A stretch of DNA of 36,816 bases from a virus, in the IMG/VR virus record IMGVR_UViG_3300019730_000001, positions 1-36,816 of that record; one strand, given 5' to 3'. The position numbers and the translations under genes are program-made. Every line of letters begins with the position of its first letter. Positions within the stretch are counted from its first letter, which is position 1. Shown here in pieces: positions 5,019 to 35,177 of this stretch. A model generated the notes under the pieces. It searched no databases and was not told the DNA's origin. It saw nothing but the letters and a program-made list of their open reading frames with translations.

Positions 5019-5843
5019 TTATTCTACTATATGTCCTTGTGCTATTACTTGAAAGCTATCCAATCCTGTCAAATCATCTTGTATAATACATTGAAACTCA
5101 TCATTAGTATCAGCTGATAGTCTTACAACAACACCATTTTTATCTTGTCCACTGAAACTTCTTCTTCCTCTTAACCCATATAATCCTGCTGGTCCTAAAG
5201 TATCAGGTATATAAGTTACATCATACATATGAGCAGCTAAATCTCCATTAGTTTTAGCATTAAATATATTTTTAGTAATACCGTCTACTTTTCTAAAAAC
5301 TATTCCATTTGTTAATGCTGCAGCACCACCAAATTTACCATCGTCCATAGCTGTAGCATCTGTAATTGATATTAAAAATCTTGTTATATCCCACTTAGTA
5401 CCTGCTGTTAAATTAGCTGGGCTTACTGAGAATATAACTGGAGTTGCACTACCATTTACATTCATATTTTCTGTTCTTTCACTACAACCTCCTGCTGTTG
5501 TAAATGCGAAGTCTAAAGGTGTATCTAAAACTATATCCCAATTACTAGCATTTGCTGAATGACTTAATATTTGTCCTTGATAAAAAGCTGTTCCTTCTTT
5601 AAAACATACTGCATTACCATCTGTTGGCTCTGCGTCTGATGTTATTGTTACTGTTGTATCATCTATAGATGTATTAGTTGTTATTACTAATTCTTGTATT
5701 ATTCTACTTAAATGTAAATCAATTATCTCCGTTGTTTGGTCTTGTACATTTACATCCAAACCATTATTAGTTACATTAGCAAATTCTCTTGTTTGTGGGT
5801 TATATGGTAAAACCCTAGTTACTGTATTAAATATTCTTCTCAT
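5019..5843 (-). CDS. Probable virion/tail-associated protein
   Basis: A 274-residue protein rich in Thr, Asn, Asp and Gly with beta-strand character, as in phage surface proteins. Its C-terminus (GLRGRRSFSGQDKNGVVVRL, then FQCIIQDDLTGLDSF) matches a recurring but unnamed phage late protein I have seen near tail genes. It has no signal peptide or membrane helix. It is the last gene of the late operon, after a holin-like gene, so a decoration or fibre-associated role is inferred. Confidence 0.55.
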   Translation of the reverse strand: MRRIFNTVTRVLPYNPQTREFANVTNNGLDVNVQDQTTEIIDLHLSRIIQELVITTNTSIDDTTVTITSDAEPTDGNAVCFKEGTAFYQGQILSHSANASNWDIVLDTPLDFAFTTAGGCSERTENMNVNGSATPVIFSVSPANLTAGTKWDITRFLISITDATAMDDGKFGGAAALTNGIVFRKVDGITKNIFNAKTNGDLAAHMYDVTYIPDTLGPAGLYGLRGRRSFSGQDKNGVVVRLSADTNDEFQCIIQDDLTGLDSFQVIAQGHIVE

Positions 5844-6804: not shown

Positions 6805-7344
6805 TTAACCTGTTATATCCATTGTTACCCAACCACTATCTATATCAATATCTAACACTTGTTCTTTTGTTGTACAAGATAATATTTGACCTGTTAAAGT
6901 ATTATAGTTACCCCAATTTATTCTTGATTTATCTATAACACTATCTAATATTGATATTGAATCTTCTCTAGAATTAAAACTATATAATGTATTATTTGAA
7001 CATCTCCAAGTATGTAAATATGTTTTAGAATTATAAACTGTATCGTCTATACTATTAAGATAAGATAACCTGCTTTCCATAGCAGTGAGACTATTATCAT
7101 CTGATTGGAAATACTTATCGGTATCTACTTTACATAATCTAATAATTATATCTTTTTTAAATCTTAATCTTTTAATTTTACGCTTCTTATGTTCTTCTAA
7201 AGGTCTTATTGGGTCAGCAGGTTTTGTAAAAATAGAACCATTATAAGTCCACCCTTTATCTACATATTCAGGACATTCAACTCCTGCATTACCATCAATA
7301 ACCACATTAATTACTAATCCATCTTCTATAATTGCTTTTCTCAT
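6805..7344 (-). CDS. Tail-fibre-associated protein (chaperone-like N-terminus)
   Basis: A 179-residue protein whose N-terminus (MRKAIIEDGLVINVVI, then GWTYNGSIFTKP at about 31-42, followed by a Lys/Arg-rich helix) has the layout of proteins encoded just behind tail fibres, such as fibre-assembly and DUF4376-like proteins. The C-terminal half is helical and polar. It lies directly downstream of the tail-fibre gene in the late operon. The link to fibre assembly rests on position and layout only. Confidence 0.55.
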   Translation of the reverse strand: MRKAIIEDGLVINVVIDGNAGVECPEYVDKGWTYNGSIFTKPADPIRPLEEHKKRKIKRLRFKKDIIIRLCKVDTDKYFQSDDNSLTAMESRLSYLNSIDDTVYNSKTYLHTWRCSNNTLYSFNSREDSISILDSVIDKSRINWGNYNTLTGQILSCTTKEQVLDIDIDSGWVTMDITG

Positions 7345-7354
7345 AATCTTCTCC

Positions 7355-9055
7355 TTAATACCATGTTATAACAGCTAATCCAGCACCACCAGCACCACCA
7401 GCAGTCCCACCAGTTCCAGCACTACCACCAGCTCCGATTACAATAGTTAAATTAGCAGCATCATCATATTTAATACATAAACCACCAGCACCACCACCAG
7501 CTCCAGCTTTAGTAGCAGATTTACCTCCACCACCACCAGCACCTAAGCCACCAGCCTCTCCTGTTAAAGCTGCAATATTAACTCTTTCTCTAGCACCAGC
7601 ACCACCATAAGCACCACCAGCACTACCACCACCACCAGTGTAGTCTTCTGAACCATAACCTCTAGTTCCACCTTCTCCGAAGTAATTTAAATCTCCACCT
7701 GAAGCTGTACCACCAACACCTCCATCTTCTTTAGAAGCACTATCTCCAGTACCTCCAGTACCACCATTTGCTGTTAATGTAACTGCTGCATAGTTTACTG
7801 TTGATGTTCCACCTGTTCCTGCATTATCTCCATCAGAGGCTCCACCACCTCCGCCTCCACCATGAAGTTCTATAAGCATTTTAGTTGCTCCTGCTGGAAC
7901 TGTAAGGTTACTTGTAGAAGTAACAAATTGAACTTGTGGTACAAAAGCTGCTCCAAGAGTCTCTATTTTATCATATATAGCATTCTTAGTTGGTACTTCT
8001 ACTGAAGCATCCCAACCTACTCCATAAGCTTCATCTGGCACTGATATATCTCCAGAGAATGTTCCACCTGTTAAATTAGCTTTTAAATCTAATTCATTTT
8101 GTAAATCTGTTTGGTCTGATAATGTTCCTCCAATTGTCCCCCAGTCAGCACTAACACTATCACCTTTATTAGCTAAATCATCCCAATATGCAGTTCCTCC
8201 AACTACAGGAGTTTGTCCTGTACCTGCTTGTATACAAATAAAAGAAGAACCTAAATATGTTACTGCATCATTTAATGCATAAGCTGTTCCTGCGTTATAT
8301 GTTCCTTGCCATTCTATCTTAGCTACTTCAGCTGCTGCTGCACTTGCTGCTGCATTAGTCTCACTAGTAGCTGCATTAGTCTCACTAATACCAGCATTTG
8401 TTTCAGAAATACCTGCTGCTACTTCACTAGCTGCTGCATTTGTTTCTGATGTTGCAGCATTAGATTCTGATGTTGAAGCATTACTCTCTGATGTTGCTGC
8501 ATTCGTTTCACTTATAGCTGCTGCTGCTGCACTTGCTGCTGCATTAGCTGCATCTACTGAAATTTGAGATACAGTTGTACCTGAGTTTTCAAAGTTACCA
8601 TCAGATGTCCATACAGGAAATTCACCTTCTTCTGCAACTGGTAATTGTATTGGAGTACCACTATCATCTAAAATATTAGATTGAACTCCACGAGATAATT
8701 GTTCTTGTAATTGTTGGTCTATTAATACACCTTTATCGTACTCTCTTTCACATTCTTCAGGTGGAAAATCTCTTTTACCTAAATTTAATGTTTGTGTTAA
8801 GTCTTGAATACTTTGTAATACTACCTTATCTGCAACTACAGCTAAAGTCGCTGCATCTGTGATAGTCAGTATACCTGTACTATAAGTAGTAGATATTGTG
8901 TATTTATCACTGGTAATATCCTGTACTTTTGTACCATCATTATCATATAGTGATACAAATAAGTCAGTACCATCTTGTATACGAGGGTATGAAAATTCAT
9001 CTACCACATTATCCCAAGTATATATCTTCTTATTGTCTGTTGTTGTTACTGTCAT
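7355..9055 (-). CDS. Tail fibre / receptor-binding protein
   Basis: 566 residues in clear modules. The N-terminal ~130 residues (YTWDNVVDEFSYPRI, then LTQTLNLGKRDFPPEECEREYDKG) resemble the adaptor domain that fixes T7-like fibres to the tail. Next is an Ala-rich heptad region of SETNAAT/SESNAAT units (about 165-240), expected to form a trimeric coiled coil. A carbohydrate-binding-like module follows (YNAGTAYALNDAVTYLGSSF and PVVGGTAYWDDLA, about 250-290), then a small domain with an EVPTKNAIYDKI motif. The C-terminal ~165 residues are glycine-rich repeats ending in AVITWY, likely a polyglycine-type receptor-binding tip. Confidence 0.85.
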   Translation of the reverse strand: MTVTTTDNKKIYTWDNVVDEFSYPRIQDGTDLFVSLYDNDGTKVQDITSDKYTISTTYSTGILTITDAATLAVVADKVVLQSIQDLTQTLNLGKRDFPPEECEREYDKGVLIDQQLQEQLSRGVQSNILDDSGTPIQLPVAEEGEFPVWTSDGNFENSGTTVSQISVDAANAAASAAAAAISETNAATSESNASTSESNAATSETNAAASEVAAGISETNAGISETNAATSETNAAASAAAAEVAKIEWQGTYNAGTAYALNDAVTYLGSSFICIQAGTGQTPVVGGTAYWDDLANKGDSVSADWGTIGGTLSDQTDLQNELDLKANLTGGTFSGDISVPDEAYGVGWDASVEVPTKNAIYDKIETLGAAFVPQVQFVTSTSNLTVPAGATKMLIELHGGGGGGGASDGDNAGTGGTSTVNYAAVTLTANGGTGGTGDSASKEDGGVGGTASGGDLNYFGEGGTRGYGSEDYTGGGGSAGGAYGGAGARERVNIAALTGEAGGLGAGGGGGKSATKAGAGGGAGGLCIKYDDAANLTIVIGAGGSAGTGGTAGGAGGAGLAVITWY

Positions 9056-9072
9056 AATTTACTCCTTTATAT

Positions 9073-23879: not shown

Positions 23880-24206
23880 CTAGTCTCTAAACTGCTTCTC
23901 AGCACATAAATCACAGACAAATACCTTCTTATAGTAGTATTTACCTTTTACAGTAGTACCATTGCTTAAATGTGTATCAGGGTGTCTAAATGTCTGTATA
24001 TATGAAAATACAAAGGCATCCTCACCTTTTATCTTATGAGGACACTTAGGCTCTTCTGTAACAGCCTCACCTTTAACTGCATCAGATTCAATAATCTCTA
24101 CAGTCTCTTTTGTTTCGTAAAATTCTTCTATATCAGCTTTAGTTGTCTTATTATTTACAATCATTCCATCTAATTCTGCTTGTTTTTTCTTTTCTTGAAA
24201 ACTCAT
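23880..24206 (-). CDS. Hypothetical protein with C..H / CxxC zinc-like motif, first late gene
   Basis: A 108-residue protein: a charged helical N-terminus (1-50), then CPHKIKG near residue 53 and FVCDLCAEK near 96-104, which could bind one zinc ion. SD AGGAG precedes the ATG. It is the first gene behind the late promoter, so it is a candidate early-acting late gene, for example regulatory; no family was recognised. Confidence 0.7.
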   Translation of the reverse strand: MSFQEKKKQAELDGMIVNNKTTKADIEEFYETKETVEIIESDAVKGEAVTEEPKCPHKIKGEDAFVFSYIQTFRHPDTHLSNGTTVKGKYYYKKVFVCDLCAEKQFRD

Positions 24207-24239
24207 TTTTTTAATCTCCTATTAAAAGTTTATTTCTAA

Positions 24240-24268
24240 GTTTTACCATGGTTTGAGACGGCTGTCAA
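24240..24268 (-). promoter_or_regulatory. Late-operon promoter (left half of the divergent pair)
   Basis: Reading the minus strand: TTGACA (24268 to 24263), 17 bases, TAAAAC (24245 to 24240), with TGG giving an extended -10. It is placed about 34 bases upstream of the first late gene. The weaker -10 and the site TTTCCGTGCAAA 13 bases upstream of the -35 suggest control by an activator or repressor. Confidence 0.75.
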
Positions 24269-24281
24269 GGGCCTTCCTTAG

Positions 24282-24373
24282 TTTGCACGGAAATAATTTA
24301 ATTAATCTTATTAAAAAAAAGAATAACCTATTATCAATAACTTAGTAAAAATATGAAACTTTTTCCGTACAAA
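24282..24373. repeat. Inverted-repeat regulatory sites between the divergent promoters
   Basis: TTTGCACGGAAA (24282-24293) and TTTCCGTACAAA (24362-24373) are inverted copies with one mismatch. Each lies exactly 13 bases upstream of a TTGACA, one per promoter, and the 13-base linkers are also similar (8 of 13 identical). The 68 bases between the arms are almost pure AT. They look like binding sites for one shared regulator. Confidence 0.75.
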
Positions 24374-24386
24374 GTGAGAAAAGCTC

Positions 24387-24415
24387 TTGACAAAGTAAAA
24401 TAAAAGTGCTATATT
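24387..24415 (+). promoter_or_regulatory. Early/RNA promoter (right half of the divergent pair)
   Basis: TTGACA (24387-24392), 17 bases, TATATT (24410-24415) with TGC before the -10. Transcription should begin near 24422, at the edge of the GC-richer tract read here as a structured RNA. Confidence 0.8.
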
Positions 24416-24421
24416 ACCTTT

Positions 24422-24790
24422 ATGTCCAAATAAAAGAGGTTTTCGACCTGGGTTTAGAAACCAAACACGTAACTTGAATAATAGTAGAGTGAACCTCAGA
24501 CATAAGAACCAGGTAAATGAGTATGCAGGTGAAGAGCCTGGACATACACTAGTTATAACTATCTCACTTAGTTTTAACTATACCATTATCATTCGGGAAT
24601 GCATCGAAGAGCTAGGTAAGCCACTCAGGGTTTCGGATAATCGCCAGGAGTACATTAGATGTAGTGAGAGTTACTAAGTATAAACTCAGTTTAGCAGAAG
24701 TAATAATTCTCCATTATGAGCACCATTACGCCTTTTTTATAGGCTATCTCTCATAGGGGGGAATTGAAAACTAGTAAAATCTAGATTAGC
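24422..24790 (+). ncRNA. Candidate structured non-coding RNA
   Basis: This roughly 370-base tract starts where the divergent promoter should fire and is clearly richer in G+C than the rest of the genome. Possible helices: GTATGCAGG (24521-24529) with CCTG (24537-24540) and CATAC (24543-24547); ACCTGG (24446-24451) with CCAGGT (24509-24514), which competes with AGGT (24437-24440)/ACCT; AACT-AT-CTCACT (24557-24568) with AGTGAG-AGTT (24663-24672); inside that, ATTATC (24585-24590) with GATAAT (24636-24641); and TATGAG (24715-24720) with CTCATA (24750-24755). A 67-codon TTG-started frame exists but has unusual codons and no SD. I cannot match it to group I/II introns, tmRNA or another named family. 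The 3' end is uncertain; a terminator follows at 25022-25044. Confidence 0.6.
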
Positions 24791-24801
24791 AGGTATAATA
24801 T

Positions 24802-24951
24802 ATGAAGGAATATACAGTATATACAAGATTCCGTAAACCATACAAGGTTAACGGAGATTCAATAATTATCAATAACAAATTCTTAATTATTTACTATAAT
24901 GGATTTATCCAATGTATGTTTAAAGTAAAAGATATTATCAAAATACTATAA
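24802..24951 (+). CDS. Small hypothetical protein in the hub
   Basis: A 49-codon ORF (MKEYTVYTRFRKPYKV...KDIIKIL) with AGCAGG eight bases before the ATG. Basic N-terminus, then a beta-like, Ile/Tyr-rich middle. AT-rich codon use like the phage genes. It would be carried on the same transcript as the candidate RNA. No family was recognised. Confidence 0.5.
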   Translation: MKEYTVYTRFRKPYKVNGDSIIINNKFLIIYYNGFIQCMFKVKDIIKIL

Positions 24952-25021
24952 ATAACCTATAATCATATAACTAATTTAAGCAAAATTGTATTCAATTAAA
25001 GGTACTATAATACCATCACCT

Positions 25022-25044
25022 CTCTCTAAAAGGAGAGTTTTTTT
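25022..25044 (+). terminator. Terminator-like hairpin / possible attenuator
   Basis: CTCTC (25022-25026) and GAGAG (25033-25037) form a short stem followed by seven T's. It would end a transcript of about 620 bases from the promoter at 24387. The stem includes AGGAG, the only SD for the ORF at 25045, so terminator and SD overlap. A possible TATAAT at 25006-25011 lacks a convincing -35. Confidence 0.55.
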
Positions 25045-25203
25045 ATGCCAGATATTCTGAAAATCACTGTAGAAAAGGGTACCCCTCCTCTTTTAAAGGA
25101 AAGACCGCCGAAAGAGCCGAATTTTCAGCACAGATGCATTTTGAATGGTATATATATATTACGCCCCGCTTGGGGGACTTTGCCTTTAATATATAGGCAC
25201 TAA
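25045..25203 (+). other. GC-richer foldable tract: 52-codon ORF or structured RNA
   Basis: An ORF of 52 codons (MPDILKITVEKGTPPLLKER, then PPKEPNFQHRC) follows AGGAG by 9 bases. Codon use (CCG, CGC, GGG) differs from the other genes. The same DNA folds well: CTGAAAAT (25057-25064) pairs with ATTTTCAG (25121-25128), and TATATATTA (25153-25161) pairs with TAATATATA (25187-25195) around a CCCC-GCTT-GGGG hairpin (25164-25175). I cannot decide between a small gene of foreign origin and an RNA element. Confidence 0.4.
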
Positions 25204-25231
25204 CGATTACAGCGTATATGTAACCTATTCA

Positions 25232-25255
25232 GTGTAGACATGGTAAACACTACAC
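25232..25255. repeat. Inverted repeat left of the DnaA boxes
   Basis: GTGTAG (25232-25237) and CTACAC (25250-25255) form a short inverted repeat with a 12-base centre, between the foldable tract and the DnaA cluster. It may be a protein site at the origin edge; it is too short to say more. Confidence 0.35.
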
Positions 25256-25270
25256 AAGCCATTGAATCTA

Positions 25271-25484
25271 TTGCATAAATGAGTGATAATTGTATAGTTA
25301 TCCACAGGTATATATACTTATCCACAGGTTATCCACAGGCTAATGAAGTTATCCACAATTTATACATGGATTCTCAGGCTCATAATTTATTTTATGCGTA
25401 TAATTCCATGAAGAATAACACGAGAGAGACATCATTCTGCTTAATTTTTAAGCATTCCGTGTAGAATAAGTGTTGCATAAATGA
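25271..25484. other. Putative replication origin with four DnaA boxes
   Basis: Four perfect TTATCCACA boxes stand on the plus strand at 25298-25306, 25318-25326, 25329-25337 and 25349-25357. Start-to-start spacings are 20, 11 and 20 bases, close to whole helical turns. A 12-base direct repeat TTGCATAAATGA lies on either side (25271-25282 and 25473-25484), and AT-rich DNA follows. The consensus is that of the bacterial initiator DnaA, which the phage does not encode, so host DnaA is the likely binder. All genes on both arms point away from this site. Confidence 0.8.
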
Positions 25485-25734
25485 CACACTCTTACATTCT
25501 TTACTCACATTATAGTCTTTCTCTGCACTATATGGATTAATTACCTTTATTAAATATGCCTATTATTTAAGCATAATCTCCTTTATTTTCCTATTTCCTT
25601 AATATTGCGATATAGCTTTAACTCTCTTTTAAGCCCTCTCTAATACATTGTATATAAAATAGTATATTAGTATTATTTTCTTTTCTCTACACTACAGCCC
25701 TCTTAAAATGTATTATTAATAAAACATTATATCT
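25485..25734. other. AT-rich non-coding stretch right of the origin boxes
   Basis: About 250 bases of very AT-rich, pyrimidine-rich DNA without an acceptable ORF. It could be the unwinding element of the origin. I see no further DnaA box, clear iteron or promoter in it. Confidence 0.5.
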
Positions 25735-25765
25735 TGCACTTTATCTTGTATAAGGTGCATTTTTT
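25735..25765 (+). terminator. Rho-independent terminator before the HNH gene
   Basis: TGCACTTTAT (25735-25744), loop CTTGT, ATAAGGTGCA (25750-25759): a 10-bp stem with one G-T pair followed by six T's. It would stop plus-strand transcripts that cross the origin, one base before the -35 of the next promoter. Confidence 0.85.
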
Positions 25766-25766
25766 A

Positions 25767-25795
25767 TTGACAAATCTTTATATATATGTTATAGA
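25767..25795 (+). promoter_or_regulatory. Promoter of the HNH gene
   Basis: TTGACA (25767-25772), 17 bases, TATAGA (25790-25795), with TGT before the -10. It starts right after the terminator hairpin and lies 20 bases upstream of the HNH start codon. Confidence 0.8.
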
Positions 25796-25814
25796 ATAAG
25801 TAGGAGGACAGCTT

Positions 25815-26960: not shown

Positions 26961-27307
26961 TGACGTTTGAAAGAATAAAAAATCCTAATTTATATAATAA
27001 ACACTTTACAACTATAACAGATTGCGGTTATTTATCCTTTTCTAGTGCAATAGTTAAAGAGTTTAATATATATGAGTATGATTATTTAAATATATATTAT
27101 AATACAGAGACTAAACAGATTGGATTACATTTAATAAAAGAGCAAGACAGTAATTCATATAAGTTAATAAATAGTAATTATAATCAAAGAGTAAATATTA
27201 ATTATTTACTGCAAGAATATAAAATTAAAGACAAAGGGAGATTTAAAACCTATCAATTAGATGATATGATTATAATAGATTTAAACCAACAATTAAGAAA
27301 GGATTAA
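26960..27307 (+). CDS. Hypothetical beta-rich protein (AbrB-like fold possible)
   Basis: A 115-residue protein. Residues 17-60 (ITDCGYLSFSSAIVKEFNI, then YDYLNIYYNTETKQIGLHLI) have the strand-helix-strand rhythm of swapped-hairpin AbrB-like domains. No diagnostic residue proves DNA binding. Its start is coupled to the small peptide upstream. Confidence 0.6.
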   Translation: MTFERIKNPNLYNKHFTTITDCGYLSFSSAIVKEFNIYEYDYLNIYYNTETKQIGLHLIKEQDSNSYKLINSNYNQRVNINYLLQEYKIKDKGRFKTYQLDDMIIIDLNQQLRKD

Positions 27308-27311
27308 GATT

Positions 27312-27494
27312 ATGAAAGAAGGACAAATGATTACATTTAACGGTCAGGAATGGCTAATAAAAGATGTAGATGAGGGAGTTTTAACTATAACAAATATAGA
27401 TGAAACAAAGAAAATACATTTATCAGACTTAAAGGCTGAGCAGTTAATAGATGAATTACTAAATGATAGAGAGGTGAAAGATGAAACAAACTAA
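27312..27494 (+). CDS. Hypothetical small acidic protein
   Basis: 60 residues; the first half (GQMITFNGQEWLIKDVDEGVLTI) looks like a small beta barrel, the rest is an acidic helix. It overlaps the next gene by 14 bases. No family was recognised. Confidence 0.65.
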   Translation: MKEGQMITFNGQEWLIKDVDEGVLTITNIDETKKIHLSDLKAEQLIDELLNDREVKDETN

Positions 27495-27762
27495 GCAACA
27501 ATTGATAAAGAAACTTGAAGAATTACAAGATAAAAAAGAACGTTTATTATCTGAAAAACAAAGATTAGAAATAAAACTAAATGATACAATTCGTGCTAAA
27601 ATAAATTTAAAACAAGAGATGGAGATGTTAAAACAAAATATGTCTAATGAAACTGGACAAAATATAGTTTTGAGACAACTATTTGATAGAATACAATCTT
27701 GCGAATTAAAAACTATATTAACTGAGAATGAAAGAATGGACAAAAGCTATGGACAATTTTGA
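27481..27762 (+). CDS. Coiled-coil protein
   Basis: 93 residues, almost all charged helix with heptad-like Leu/Ile spacing (about 3-65), ending in a Cys-containing short helix. SD GAGAGGTG. Function unknown; it is overlapped by the previous and the following small genes. Confidence 0.65.
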   Translation: MKQTKQQLIKKLEELQDKKERLLSEKQRLEIKLNDTIRAKINLKQEMEMLKQNMSNETGQNIVLRQLFDRIQSCELKTILTENERMDKSYGQF

Positions 27763-28199: not shown

Positions 28200-28832
28200 A
28201 TGACAAGTTTTAAAATAAAAAAAGGTATGAAAGAAGGGGAACATTATTTAATTTGTGGTATTTGTGGAAAGCCTGTAAGAAGTTTAGGGGGGCATATTGC
28301 AAGGGCACATAGTTTATCTATCAAAGAATATAAAGATATGTTTAAACTACCATATTCAAAGGGATTAGTTTGTAATGAATTACATAGCAATCTACATGAT
28401 TCTGCTATTAATAGGATTAAAAGAGATGGTTTAACAGGTAAATTATATAATAAAGGACGTAAACAAAGTTACACAAAAAGAAAATGTTCTGAATATCATA
28501 AAGAGGTAAATATCAATAGATTAAAAAAATATCAACAAAATCATATAATAACAATAGAAGAAAGACAAGCTATATCTAAAAGAATGAAGGAATATATAAA
28601 ACAACCAAACAGTAGCCATTTTTCAAAAACTGAAACATGTAAAAAAATATTAAATAATAATGCTCAATTATCAAAACACAAAGCATTATCAAAATATAAT
28701 AAAATTATAGAGGAATATAAATCTTCTAATTATAAAAACATGAAAGTTTTCTGTAATGAAAATAATATTAATTATAAATCATTGATGAGTAAAAGAAGCC
28801 AATTAAGAAAAAGAGGAGAAATAAATGACTAA
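28200..28832 (+). CDS. MucR/Ros-type zinc-finger DNA-binding protein
   Basis: A 210-residue, very basic protein. Residues 19-37 have CGICGKPVRSLGGHIARAH, a C2H2 finger (Cys19, Cys22, His32, His37), followed by SLSIKEYKDMFKLP, as in Ros/MucR regulators and related phage proteins. The long Lys-rich C-terminal part ends with a possible helix-turn-helix (NMKVFCNENNINYKSLMSKR). Ros/MucR regulators are mostly alphaproteobacterial. It may regulate phage or host genes, or be a nuclease accessory. Overlaps the next gene by 8 bases. Confidence 0.75.
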   Translation: MTSFKIKKGMKEGEHYLICGICGKPVRSLGGHIARAHSLSIKEYKDMFKLPYSKGLVCNELHSNLHDSAINRIKRDGLTGKLYNKGRKQSYTKRKCSEYHKEVNINRLKKYQQNHIITIEERQAISKRMKEYIKQPNSSHFSKTETCKKILNNNAQLSKHKALSKYNKIIEEYKSSNYKNMKVFCNENNINYKSLMSKRSQLRKRGEIND

Positions 28833-29451
28833 ACCTAATTATTATGCAGTTATACCTGCACCAATACTATTTAATGAGAAATTATCTAATAATGCAAAGA
28901 TAATGTTCGGAGTTATTGCAACTCTAACTAATCTTAATAAAGAATGTTACGCAACAGATGATTATTTCTCCAGGATATTAAATACCTCTAAACCTAGTGT
29001 GCAGCGTTGGTTGAAAGAACTAGAGGAAAATAATATAATAGATAGAAGATTAATATATAAAGAAGGGACAAAATCTATAGAGAAAAGGTATATTTATATT
29101 CAAGAATACGCCCAATCAAAAACAATAGAAGTCTCTAATCAAAAACAATTTACCCCTCCAATCAAAAATGATAGAGATAATACTAGTCTTACAGACAGTA
29201 ATAATAATCTTACAGATAGTAAATATATATTTGAGGGTGATACAATAAAATTAACTGCAAAGGATTATGATGCACTTAAAAATATGTATTCTAATATTGA
29301 TTTAGATTTTCACTTAAAGAAAGTGGATTTAGAGTTTATGCACGATAAACCTAAAAAGTGGTTTGTTGTATTATCTGCTAAGTTAAATTATCATAATACA
29401 CAAGCAAAGAGTAAAGTTGAACAGCAACAGAACAATTATAATAGATTTTAA
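28825..29451 (+). CDS. Winged-helix replication-type protein (HTH_36-like)
   Basis: 208 residues. The N-terminal ~90 residues are a winged helix: YYAVIPAPILFNEKLSNNAK, ATDDYFSRILNTSKPSVQRW (recognition helix near 50-62), LEENNIIDRRLI and a wing. The linker is Gln/Asn/Thr-rich, and the C-terminal ~60 residues are helical (KWFVVLSAKLNYH). Phage initiator and helicase-loading proteins of the DnaD/O type have this layout. With a DnaA-type origin and no phage polymerase, a helicase-loader or initiator role is plausible but unproven. Confidence 0.7.
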   Translation: MTKPNYYAVIPAPILFNEKLSNNAKIMFGVIATLTNLNKECYATDDYFSRILNTSKPSVQRWLKELEENNIIDRRLIYKEGTKSIEKRYIYIQEYAQSKTIEVSNQKQFTPPIKNDRDNTSLTDSNNNLTDSKYIFEGDTIKLTAKDYDALKNMYSNIDLDFHLKKVDLEFMHDKPKKWFVVLSAKLNYHNTQAKSKVEQQQNNYNRF

Positions 29452-33524: not shown

Positions 33525-35177
33525 GTGCAAAATAAATTAGATAATTTAGGGATTACATTAAGAAAAACAGGTCGTCAAGTTTGTCCTAAATGTAGTCATA
33601 CTAGAAAAAACAAGACTGATAAATGTCTACAAGTTACATATAAAGATGATTGTGTATTATATAACTGCCATAACTTTGGATGTGGATTTACAGGGATAGT
33701 ATCAGATAAGAAATATAACTTTGAAATACAACCTAAAGTATACAAAAAACCTCTTCCAGCTAAGGAAGTTTCAGATAAAGAAAAAGTATATAAATACTTT
33801 GAATCAAGAGGGATAAAGCGAGAGACAACGCAACTCTTTAATATAGGATATAATGGTTCTGAAATAATATTCCCATATTATAAGCATGGAGAGTTAGTAA
33901 ATAATAAATATCGTACAGCTAATAAAACATTTAGACAAGAAGCAGAGTCAGAGAAAACTCTTTTTGGTATGGATATCTGTACTAATTTAGTAGCTGATAC
34001 TGAGGACTATACATTAACTATAGTTGAAGGTGAATTTGACGCTATGAGTTTTATACAAGCAGGTATTCCTGCAGTTAGTATACCTCAAGGTGCAAGTGAT
34101 AATAAATTAGAATGTATATCTAATTGCTTTGATTTTATTTCTGCATTTGATAATATAGTTATTGCAGTAGATGCTGATAAAGCTGGAGATAATATTAAAG
34201 AAGTATTACTAGAGAGATTTAATAAAAGTAAAGCTTGTTATGTTATAGACTGGAGTAAATATGATTCTAAAGATGCTAATGATGCACTAATAAAAGGTGG
34301 TATTGACTTATTACAGAAAGCTTATTCTGAAAGAGAACACGTTCCAATTAAAGGGTTAGTGAATTTAGAATTACAAAGAGAGAGTATTAGAAAGTTTATC
34401 TTCTCAGATTATAATAAAGGATTATCAACTGGTTGGAGTAACTTAGATAACATTATAAATGTAGTAGAAGATGGTGCTTTAGCAGTTGTTACAGGTTATC
34501 CTGGTAGAGGTAAATCAACCTTTGTTGATAACTTATTATATAACCTTAGTGTAAACGAAAACTGGAAACATTTAGTATGTTCTTTTGAGACTACAGTAGA
34601 GAGACATGTAGCTAACTTTATACAAATGCATACAGGTAAGAGTGCTAAAACTCAAGGAGATTATGCAATAAAAGAAGATGAATTTAATGATTCAATAGAC
34701 TACTTCTCTAATAAGTTATTCTTATATGATACAGATGAAAGTTTATCTATAGATGATATAATAGAATTAGCTAAATATGCAGTAGAAAGATATGGAGTTA
34801 AATCTTTAACTATTGACCCTTATAATAGAATTAAAAGAAATATAGGAGATAGAGAAGATTTATTTATTGGTGAGATGTTGGCTAAACTAGCTTTCTTTGC
34901 TAAACAGTATGGTATATTAGTTATCTTTATTGCACATCCTAAGAAGACTTTTGATACATCTGTTATTCCTACAGGTTATGATATATCAGGTTCTGCTGAC
35001 TGGGTTAATATGGCTGACTATTTATTATCAGTACATAGAGATAAGAATAAAGATACAGGAAGATATATAGGTAATACTATATTACAAGTACAGAAAGTAA
35101 AGTCTGAACATCATGGAGACCCATCAGGTGGAACAGTAGAGTTTAATATGTTTAGAAATAGATTAAAGGAGATATAA
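33525..35177 (+). CDS. TOPRIM primase-helicase (T7 gp4-like)
   Basis: 550 residues, starting at GTG five bases after SD AGGAGG. A zinc-binding domain has CPKC (20-23) and CHNFGC (48-53). The TOPRIM primase core has VEGEFDAMSF (167-176; Glu168) and AVDADKAGD (214-222). The C-terminal RecA/DnaB helicase has Walker A GYPGRGKST (324-332), a Walker B-like LTIDPYN and a downstream VIFIAHPKK motif. It unwinds DNA and lays down primers at the fork, and it is the only clear replisome enzyme in the genome; the polymerase must come from the host. Confidence 0.92.
   Translation: MQNKLDNLGITLRKTGRQVCPKCSHTRKNKTDKCLQVTYKDDCVLYNCHNFGCGFTGIVSDKKYNFEIQPKVYKKPLPAKEVSDKEKVYKYFESRGIKRETTQLFNIGYNGSEIIFPYYKHGELVNNKYRTANKTFRQEAESEKTLFGMDICTNLVADTEDYTLTIVEGEFDAMSFIQAGIPAVSIPQGASDNKLECISNCFDFISAFDNIVIAVDADKAGDNIKEVLLERFNKSKACYVIDWSKYDSKDANDALIKGGIDLLQKAYSEREHVPIKGLVNLELQRESIRKFIFSDYNKGLSTGWSNLDNIINVVEDGALAVVTGYPGRGKSTFVDNLLYNLSVNENWKHLVCSFETTVERHVANFIQMHTGKSAKTQGDYAIKEDEFNDSIDYFSNKLFLYDTDESLSIDDIIELAKYAVERYGVKSLTIDPYNRIKRNIGDREDLFIGEMLAKLAFFAKQYGILVIFIAHPKKTFDTSVIPTGYDISGSADWVNMADYLLSVHRDKNKDTGRYIGNTILQVQKVKSEHHGDPSGGTVEFNMFRNRLKEI

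Follow-up and report, generated by a model that had tools for sequence, protein, structure and literature searches.

The window analysed here is the whole 36,816-nucleotide stretch of a virus record (IMG/VR IMGVR_UViG_3300019730_000001), and the main non-coding control region of this phage carries four consensus DnaA boxes in a phased array. We propose, with a probability of roughly 0.45, that these boxes are an array of binding sites which captures or sequesters the DnaA of the host and is set apart from the phage's own origin.

Four consensus DnaA boxes form a phased array in the control region

An exact search for TTATCCACA confirmed the four same-strand boxes, with start-to-start distances of 20, 11 and 20 bp, that a sequence-only reading had described (Table 1), and these four sites are the only exact matches in the whole window. 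The consensus boxes are clustered beyond chance: four copies were reached in 0/100 shuffles of the whole window, and of 20,000 sequences generated from the intergenic region by a first-order Markov process none held more than two. The array can be read as two diverged copies of a 31-bp unit. The spacers between the boxes differ, and all four box copies are at consensus. Boxes 2 and 3 form a double DnaA box with a 2-bp gap, and a double box of the 2-3 bp class combined with helical phasing is the bacterial style of arrangement. Double boxes with 2- and 3-bp gaps are favoured by E. coli DnaA in vivo (PMC11317965). As judged from sequence, the identity of the sites as DnaA boxes is well supported by the consensus, by a spacing class and GG flank like those of bacterial and viral arrays, and by the central double box (PMC11317965). 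We also observed a 12-mer, TTGCATAAATGA, on both sides of the array (25271-25282 and 25473-25484, 202 bp apart).

Table 1. Positions of the features discussed, numbered from the first letter of the window
Feature	Position	Strand	Details
DnaA box 1	25298-25306	+	Exact TTATCCACA; followed by GG
DnaA box 2	25318-25326	+	Exact TTATCCACA; followed by GG; first half of the double box with 2-bp gap
DnaA box 3	25329-25337	+	Exact TTATCCACA; followed by GG; second half of the double box
DnaA box 4	25349-25357	+	Exact TTATCCACA
Two 31-bp units (box-N11-box), 77% identical	25297-25358	+	Repeat comparison
Divergent intergenic control region, 1.6 kb	24207-25814		Separates the leftward packaging/virion genes from the rightward early/replication genes
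Intrinsic-terminator-like hairpin with T run	25735-25759	+	Downstream of the boxes, ahead of the first rightward promoter
Sigma-70-like promoter, TTGACA-N17-TATAGA	25767-25795	+	Before the first rightward gene
Replication initiator gene (rep)	28825-29451	+	HTH_36 N-terminus; PHROG replication-initiation and DnaD-like helicase-loader families
Three 18-bp iterons, CYAATCAAAAAYRATAGA	29112-29175	+	23-bp period, out of frame; probable Rep-dependent origin
Two 21-bp repeats adjoining the iterons	29178-29219	+	Repeat search
Short AT-rich stretch after the 21-bp repeats	29220-29260		78% AT (composition)
Primase-helicase gene, Toprim and DnaB_C	33525-35177	+	Domain matches

The last leftward gene starts at 24206 and the rightward genes run from 25815. 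The earlier description of the setting of the boxes as non-coding holds for most of the region, though not strictly, because two small ORFs are present: a 61-aa frame (25279-25464) that overlaps the boxes and is without a recognisable ribosome-binding site, and a 52-aa frame (25045-25203) with a good one, AAGGAGAG. An Rfam search gave no match and a tRNA search found none. The same description had called the setting AT-rich. This is incorrect, as AT content is 63% in the array and 66% and 70% in the 100-bp flanks, compared with 70% in the genome.

The phage encodes a primase-helicase without a recognisable DNA polymerase

The portal and tail-tube proteins match those of the HTVC010P-type pelagiphages, which are podoviruses, at ~30-33% identity. 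Besides the Toprim/DnaB_C gene, the replication genes include a Sak-like annealing protein, a YqaJ exonuclease and a RusA-like resolvase. The sequence-only reading had stated that DnaA is not encoded and that there is a primase-helicase but no DNA polymerase, and both statements agree with our searches, in which no DnaA domain IV and no A-, B- or C-family polymerase were found in the phage genome. Since no phage DNA polymerase was found, the phage presumably borrows that of its host. Its labelling as T7-like suits the virion genes but not replication or transcription: the single-subunit RNA polymerase of the Autographiviridae was not found, as a search with PF00940 for the T7-type enzyme gave no match here, and the same search succeeded in another phage (contig L022).

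Searches of the phage collection with megablast and blastn revealed no close relatives, nor did patterns for the terminase, portal or Rep in viral contigs or for Rep in genomes. An alignment-based portal search returned 80 relatives, all ~29-33% identical. Related phages had been suggested as the place to look for conservation of the boxes; the box pair occurred in 0/42 distant portal relatives, a weak test because the nearest of them are only ~31% identical in portal.

A protein with DnaA domain IV is encoded in 7/28 of such relatives' records, in open frames of 142-190 aa, which are too short to hold an AAA+ motor as well, so the protein consists of domain IV only. The carriers are HTVC100P (7099-7659), HTVC010P (26998-27531) and five viral contigs, and DnaA has been listed as a feature of the HTVC010P-type family (PMC6811365). 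Such a protein might, we speculate, rival host DnaA for binding to the boxes, and it would then be a protein route to the effect that we propose for the DNA array.

Iterons within the initiator gene are the likelier origin

The gene for a replication initiator lies in the rightward block, and three iterons and two further repeats lie within it (Table 1). The iteron score was equalled by 0/150 and 0/300 codon-order shuffles, and because the 23-bp period is not a multiple of three the repeats fall out of the reading frame. They are thus repeats at the level of DNA that coding does not explain. The iteron consensus forms an array only in rep, and no iterons were found near the DnaA boxes. A phage origin inside the initiator gene is the arrangement of the lambda O type.

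The same arrangement is found in the Lactobacillus/Lacticaseibacillus phages R23.9 and PL-1, where the iterons of rep differ in sequence but have a 23-bp, out-of-frame period that is significant in both. Their place, where the gene encodes the linker of the initiator (around codons 98-108), is the same as here. A point of difference is that no TTATCCACA occurs at the rep loci of PL-1 and R23.9. In the initiator homologue of iLp1308 the best period was also 23, without significance, and no 23-bp iteron pattern was found in the homologues of FNU4, Ceridwen and TMW. From these sequence patterns, we consider the iterons, 3.8 kb from the boxes, a likelier origin than the boxes themselves.

Similar arrays recur in other viruses

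We surveyed viral contigs and bacterial genomes with a pattern of three boxes separated by gaps of up to 30, using the reversed pattern as a control. The viral contigs, some of which may be plasmids or fragments, held at least 120 array stretches, compared with 19 for the control, whose matches were dominated by 9-bp tandem repeats. Among the matches listed, viral spacings peaked at 11, 12, 21-22 and 33, and 78% fell in the phased classes (11/12, 21/22 and 31-33) where 32% was expected; the figure was 80% for the bacterial arrays, among which 34 lie at a locus that also has a DnaA-like Walker motif. Spacings of 11 and 12 correspond to double boxes with 2- and 3-bp gaps. In the arrays surveyed GG typically stands 3' of the boxes, as it does for 3/4 boxes here. 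Sixty-six percent of the viral arrays listed had no overlap with an ORF of at least 80 aa, compared with 2/19 controls, and the share of contig sequence outside such ORFs is ~21%.

A DnaA_C or DnaA DNA-binding domain was encoded by 0/40 array-bearing records, and the binder should therefore be host DnaA. A family-A DNA polymerase was present in 10/40, and contig L022 encodes both a T7-type RNA polymerase and a DNA polymerase. The exact four-box architecture of this phage had no other instance in the viral contigs. Records of Microviridae and a bajarodmic virus (hits H109-H112 and H131), which are small ssDNA phages, also align to the box array, and one of these alignments falls under a replication-initiator gene.

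Arrays were also present in named phages. Exact boxes, at least four and all on one strand, occur in a non-coding early region of Berlinvirus P483 and nasanit and of the Molineuxvirinae FBKp16 and PmP19. These T7- and SP6-type phages therefore resemble our phage in having an array, but box number and spacing differ, and P483, unlike this phage, encodes its own RNA and DNA polymerases. The stretches of BA14, Kvp1, P694 and ETEP21B that match the array-bearing stretch of P483 and nasanit contain no boxes. Because the array is present in some of these phages and absent from others, it is an optional element there and not an essential origin.

The array is disfavoured as the main replication origin

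The sequence-only reading had favoured an origin that recruits host DnaA. We found no AT-rich unwinding element adjoining the boxes, as the flanks are at or below the AT content of the genome. Nor were DnaA-trios found beside them: the longest run was one triplet, in a test that is insensitive because only 6/34 dnaA-linked bacterial arrays pass it. Trio runs occurred in 2/113 of the viral arrays listed, compared with those 6/34 (Fisher p ~0.002), and the AT excess directly 3' of the array was 0.003 for the viral matches listed and 0.078 for dnaA-linked bacterial arrays. We regard the absence of an AT-rich element and trios as weak evidence. Together with the iterons in the phage's own HTH_36/DnaD-like initiator gene and the arrays in phages that have polymerases of their own, it leads us not to favour the boxes as main origin. 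Origins predicted in phages by Ori-Finder include DnaA boxes (PMC11512268); the presence of DnaA boxes in a phage does not by itself prove an origin.

The chief rival to our preferred reading, which we consider unlikely, is a DnaA-assisted accessory origin, where host DnaA at 25.3 kb would open the duplex or assist Rep and so bring in parts of the host replisome. Consensus boxes that are phased and intergenic would suit this role, as would the presumed use of a host polymerase by a phage in which none was found. A cumulative GC-skew minimum lies at 25745, inside the control region, and its most AT-rich stretch (25700-25799; 81% AT, 97th percentile) lies 340-440 bp from the boxes. The skew, however, is confounded with gene direction, and we rejected it as origin evidence; third-position skew keeps the same sign on either side of rep. 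The accessory role is also opposed by the missing AT-rich element and trios beside the boxes and by the occurrence of such arrays in phages with their own polymerases. The distance to the iterons inside rep counts against it as well. DnaA-assisted Rep origins are known from P1 oriR, pSC101 and RK2, which like this phage have DnaA boxes as well as Rep iterons on the same replicon, but in P1 oriR and pSC101 the two are adjacent, and here they are 3.8 kb apart.

Genome ends and transcription are improbable explanations

DnaA bound near a physical end of the genome might halt or pace the entry or processing of DNA, as has been proposed for T5-like phages. The proposed injection stop signal of T5-like phages contains DnaA boxes (PMC13250531), and the left terminal repeat of BF23 contains exact boxes in two groups, three at 5377-5458 and two at 8994-9063. 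T5 and BF23 share with this phage the presence of DnaA boxes in non-coding control DNA, but they are unrelated to it, and no A1/A2-type transfer genes were identified here. The array of P483 and nasanit falls in a stretch whose aligned counterpart in BA14 and Kvp1 is the terminal-repeat end. Among the matches listed, 28 viral arrays lie at most 500 bp from a contig end where 12.9 were expected, an excess that can also arise as assemblies break at repeats. In five large viral contigs (L022, L012, L072, L075 and L052) the array is less than 200 bp from the contig end, which suggests placement in a terminal repeat. In the window itself the ends of the record share an identical overlap of 123 bp that lies within coding sequence and looks like circular assembly, and we judge a genome-end role of this array to be improbable.

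Control of transcription, with DnaA acting as a repressor, activator or roadblock that ties phage expression to the DnaA state of the host, seems to us quite improbable. DnaA is a known transcription regulator (PMC11317965), and the gene blocks on the two sides of the array diverge, with the first rightward promoter (25767) ~0.4 kb downstream of it and a strong promoter-like site (24387) upstream. The control-region scan, however, found no promoter of clear strength overlapping the boxes, and its 16 promoter-like matches compare with 15.5 by chance. The site at 24387 is extended (TTGACA-17-TATATT, 11/12) and is followed ~600 bp on by a terminator-like hairpin, and 24387-25045, which precedes the boxes, may give rise to a non-coding transcript. 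Similar TTGACA-N17-TATARA promoters stand at 1040, 25767 and 29759 and are probably early promoters of the phage used by host RNA polymerase.

That the array is a chance or neutral repeat without function is very improbable: it is not conserved in the distant relatives found and varies among the close T7-like phages described above, but the Markov sequences did not reproduce it, the consensus is intact in four copies though the spacers differ, and enrichment, phasing and intergenic placement recur in other viruses.

A model for capture of host DnaA by phage DNA

In our preferred reading, the capture of host DnaA by the array, we infer that DnaA in the real host would most likely occupy the central double box and, with cooperativity, both flanking boxes, which are about two helical turns away and would present the same face of the DNA. 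The phage genome would multiply from the predicted Rep/iteron origin in the initiator gene (29112-29219), and the growing number of high-affinity sites would keep host DnaA on phage DNA and off the host oriC, with an effect on host initiation. Bound DnaA may in addition influence the activity of the early promoters that flank the array. The sequence-only reading had named titration of DnaA as its alternative to an origin, and of the two titration fits better, while sequestration itself is what we infer. Several points count against capture: with four boxes in each genome, an effect requires that many copies have already been made, the array is absent from distant relatives, and the iteron origin is a prediction.

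The array resembles the double boxes of bacteria and the DnaA-titrating loci datA, DARS and the boxes of oriC, with which it shares TTATCCACA, the pair with a 2-bp gap and spacings of one or two turns. It differs from them in lying on a phage genome that is to be multiplied and in having no AT-rich element or trios of the oriC type beside it. Work cited in PMC12371093 probed titration in E. coli with added DnaA sites, in the form of extra copies of oriC or datA.

DnaA boxes in phages are already known from P1 oriR, from the T5-type stop signal (PMC13250531) and from Ori-Finder predictions (PMC11512268). In the literature covered, which included few subscription papers, we found nothing linking DnaA boxes to Autographiviridae, no description of recurrent phased and mostly intergenic phage arrays without an unwinding element, and none of an array set apart from a Rep/iteron origin.

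A broader proposal, possible but doubtful, is that the capture of host DnaA on non-coding and often terminal multi-box arrays is a general device of several unrelated phage lineages, some with complete replication machinery of their own, and that a protein consisting of DnaA domain IV only may serve a comparable purpose in some of this phage's distant relatives. Annotation pipelines miss a route through DNA sites because the array encodes nothing, and caution is needed with origin-finding software, which takes DnaA boxes as proof of an origin. If the proposal is true, many phages would disturb or make use of the master initiator of replication in bacteria, and would do so by DNA sites and not by a protein.
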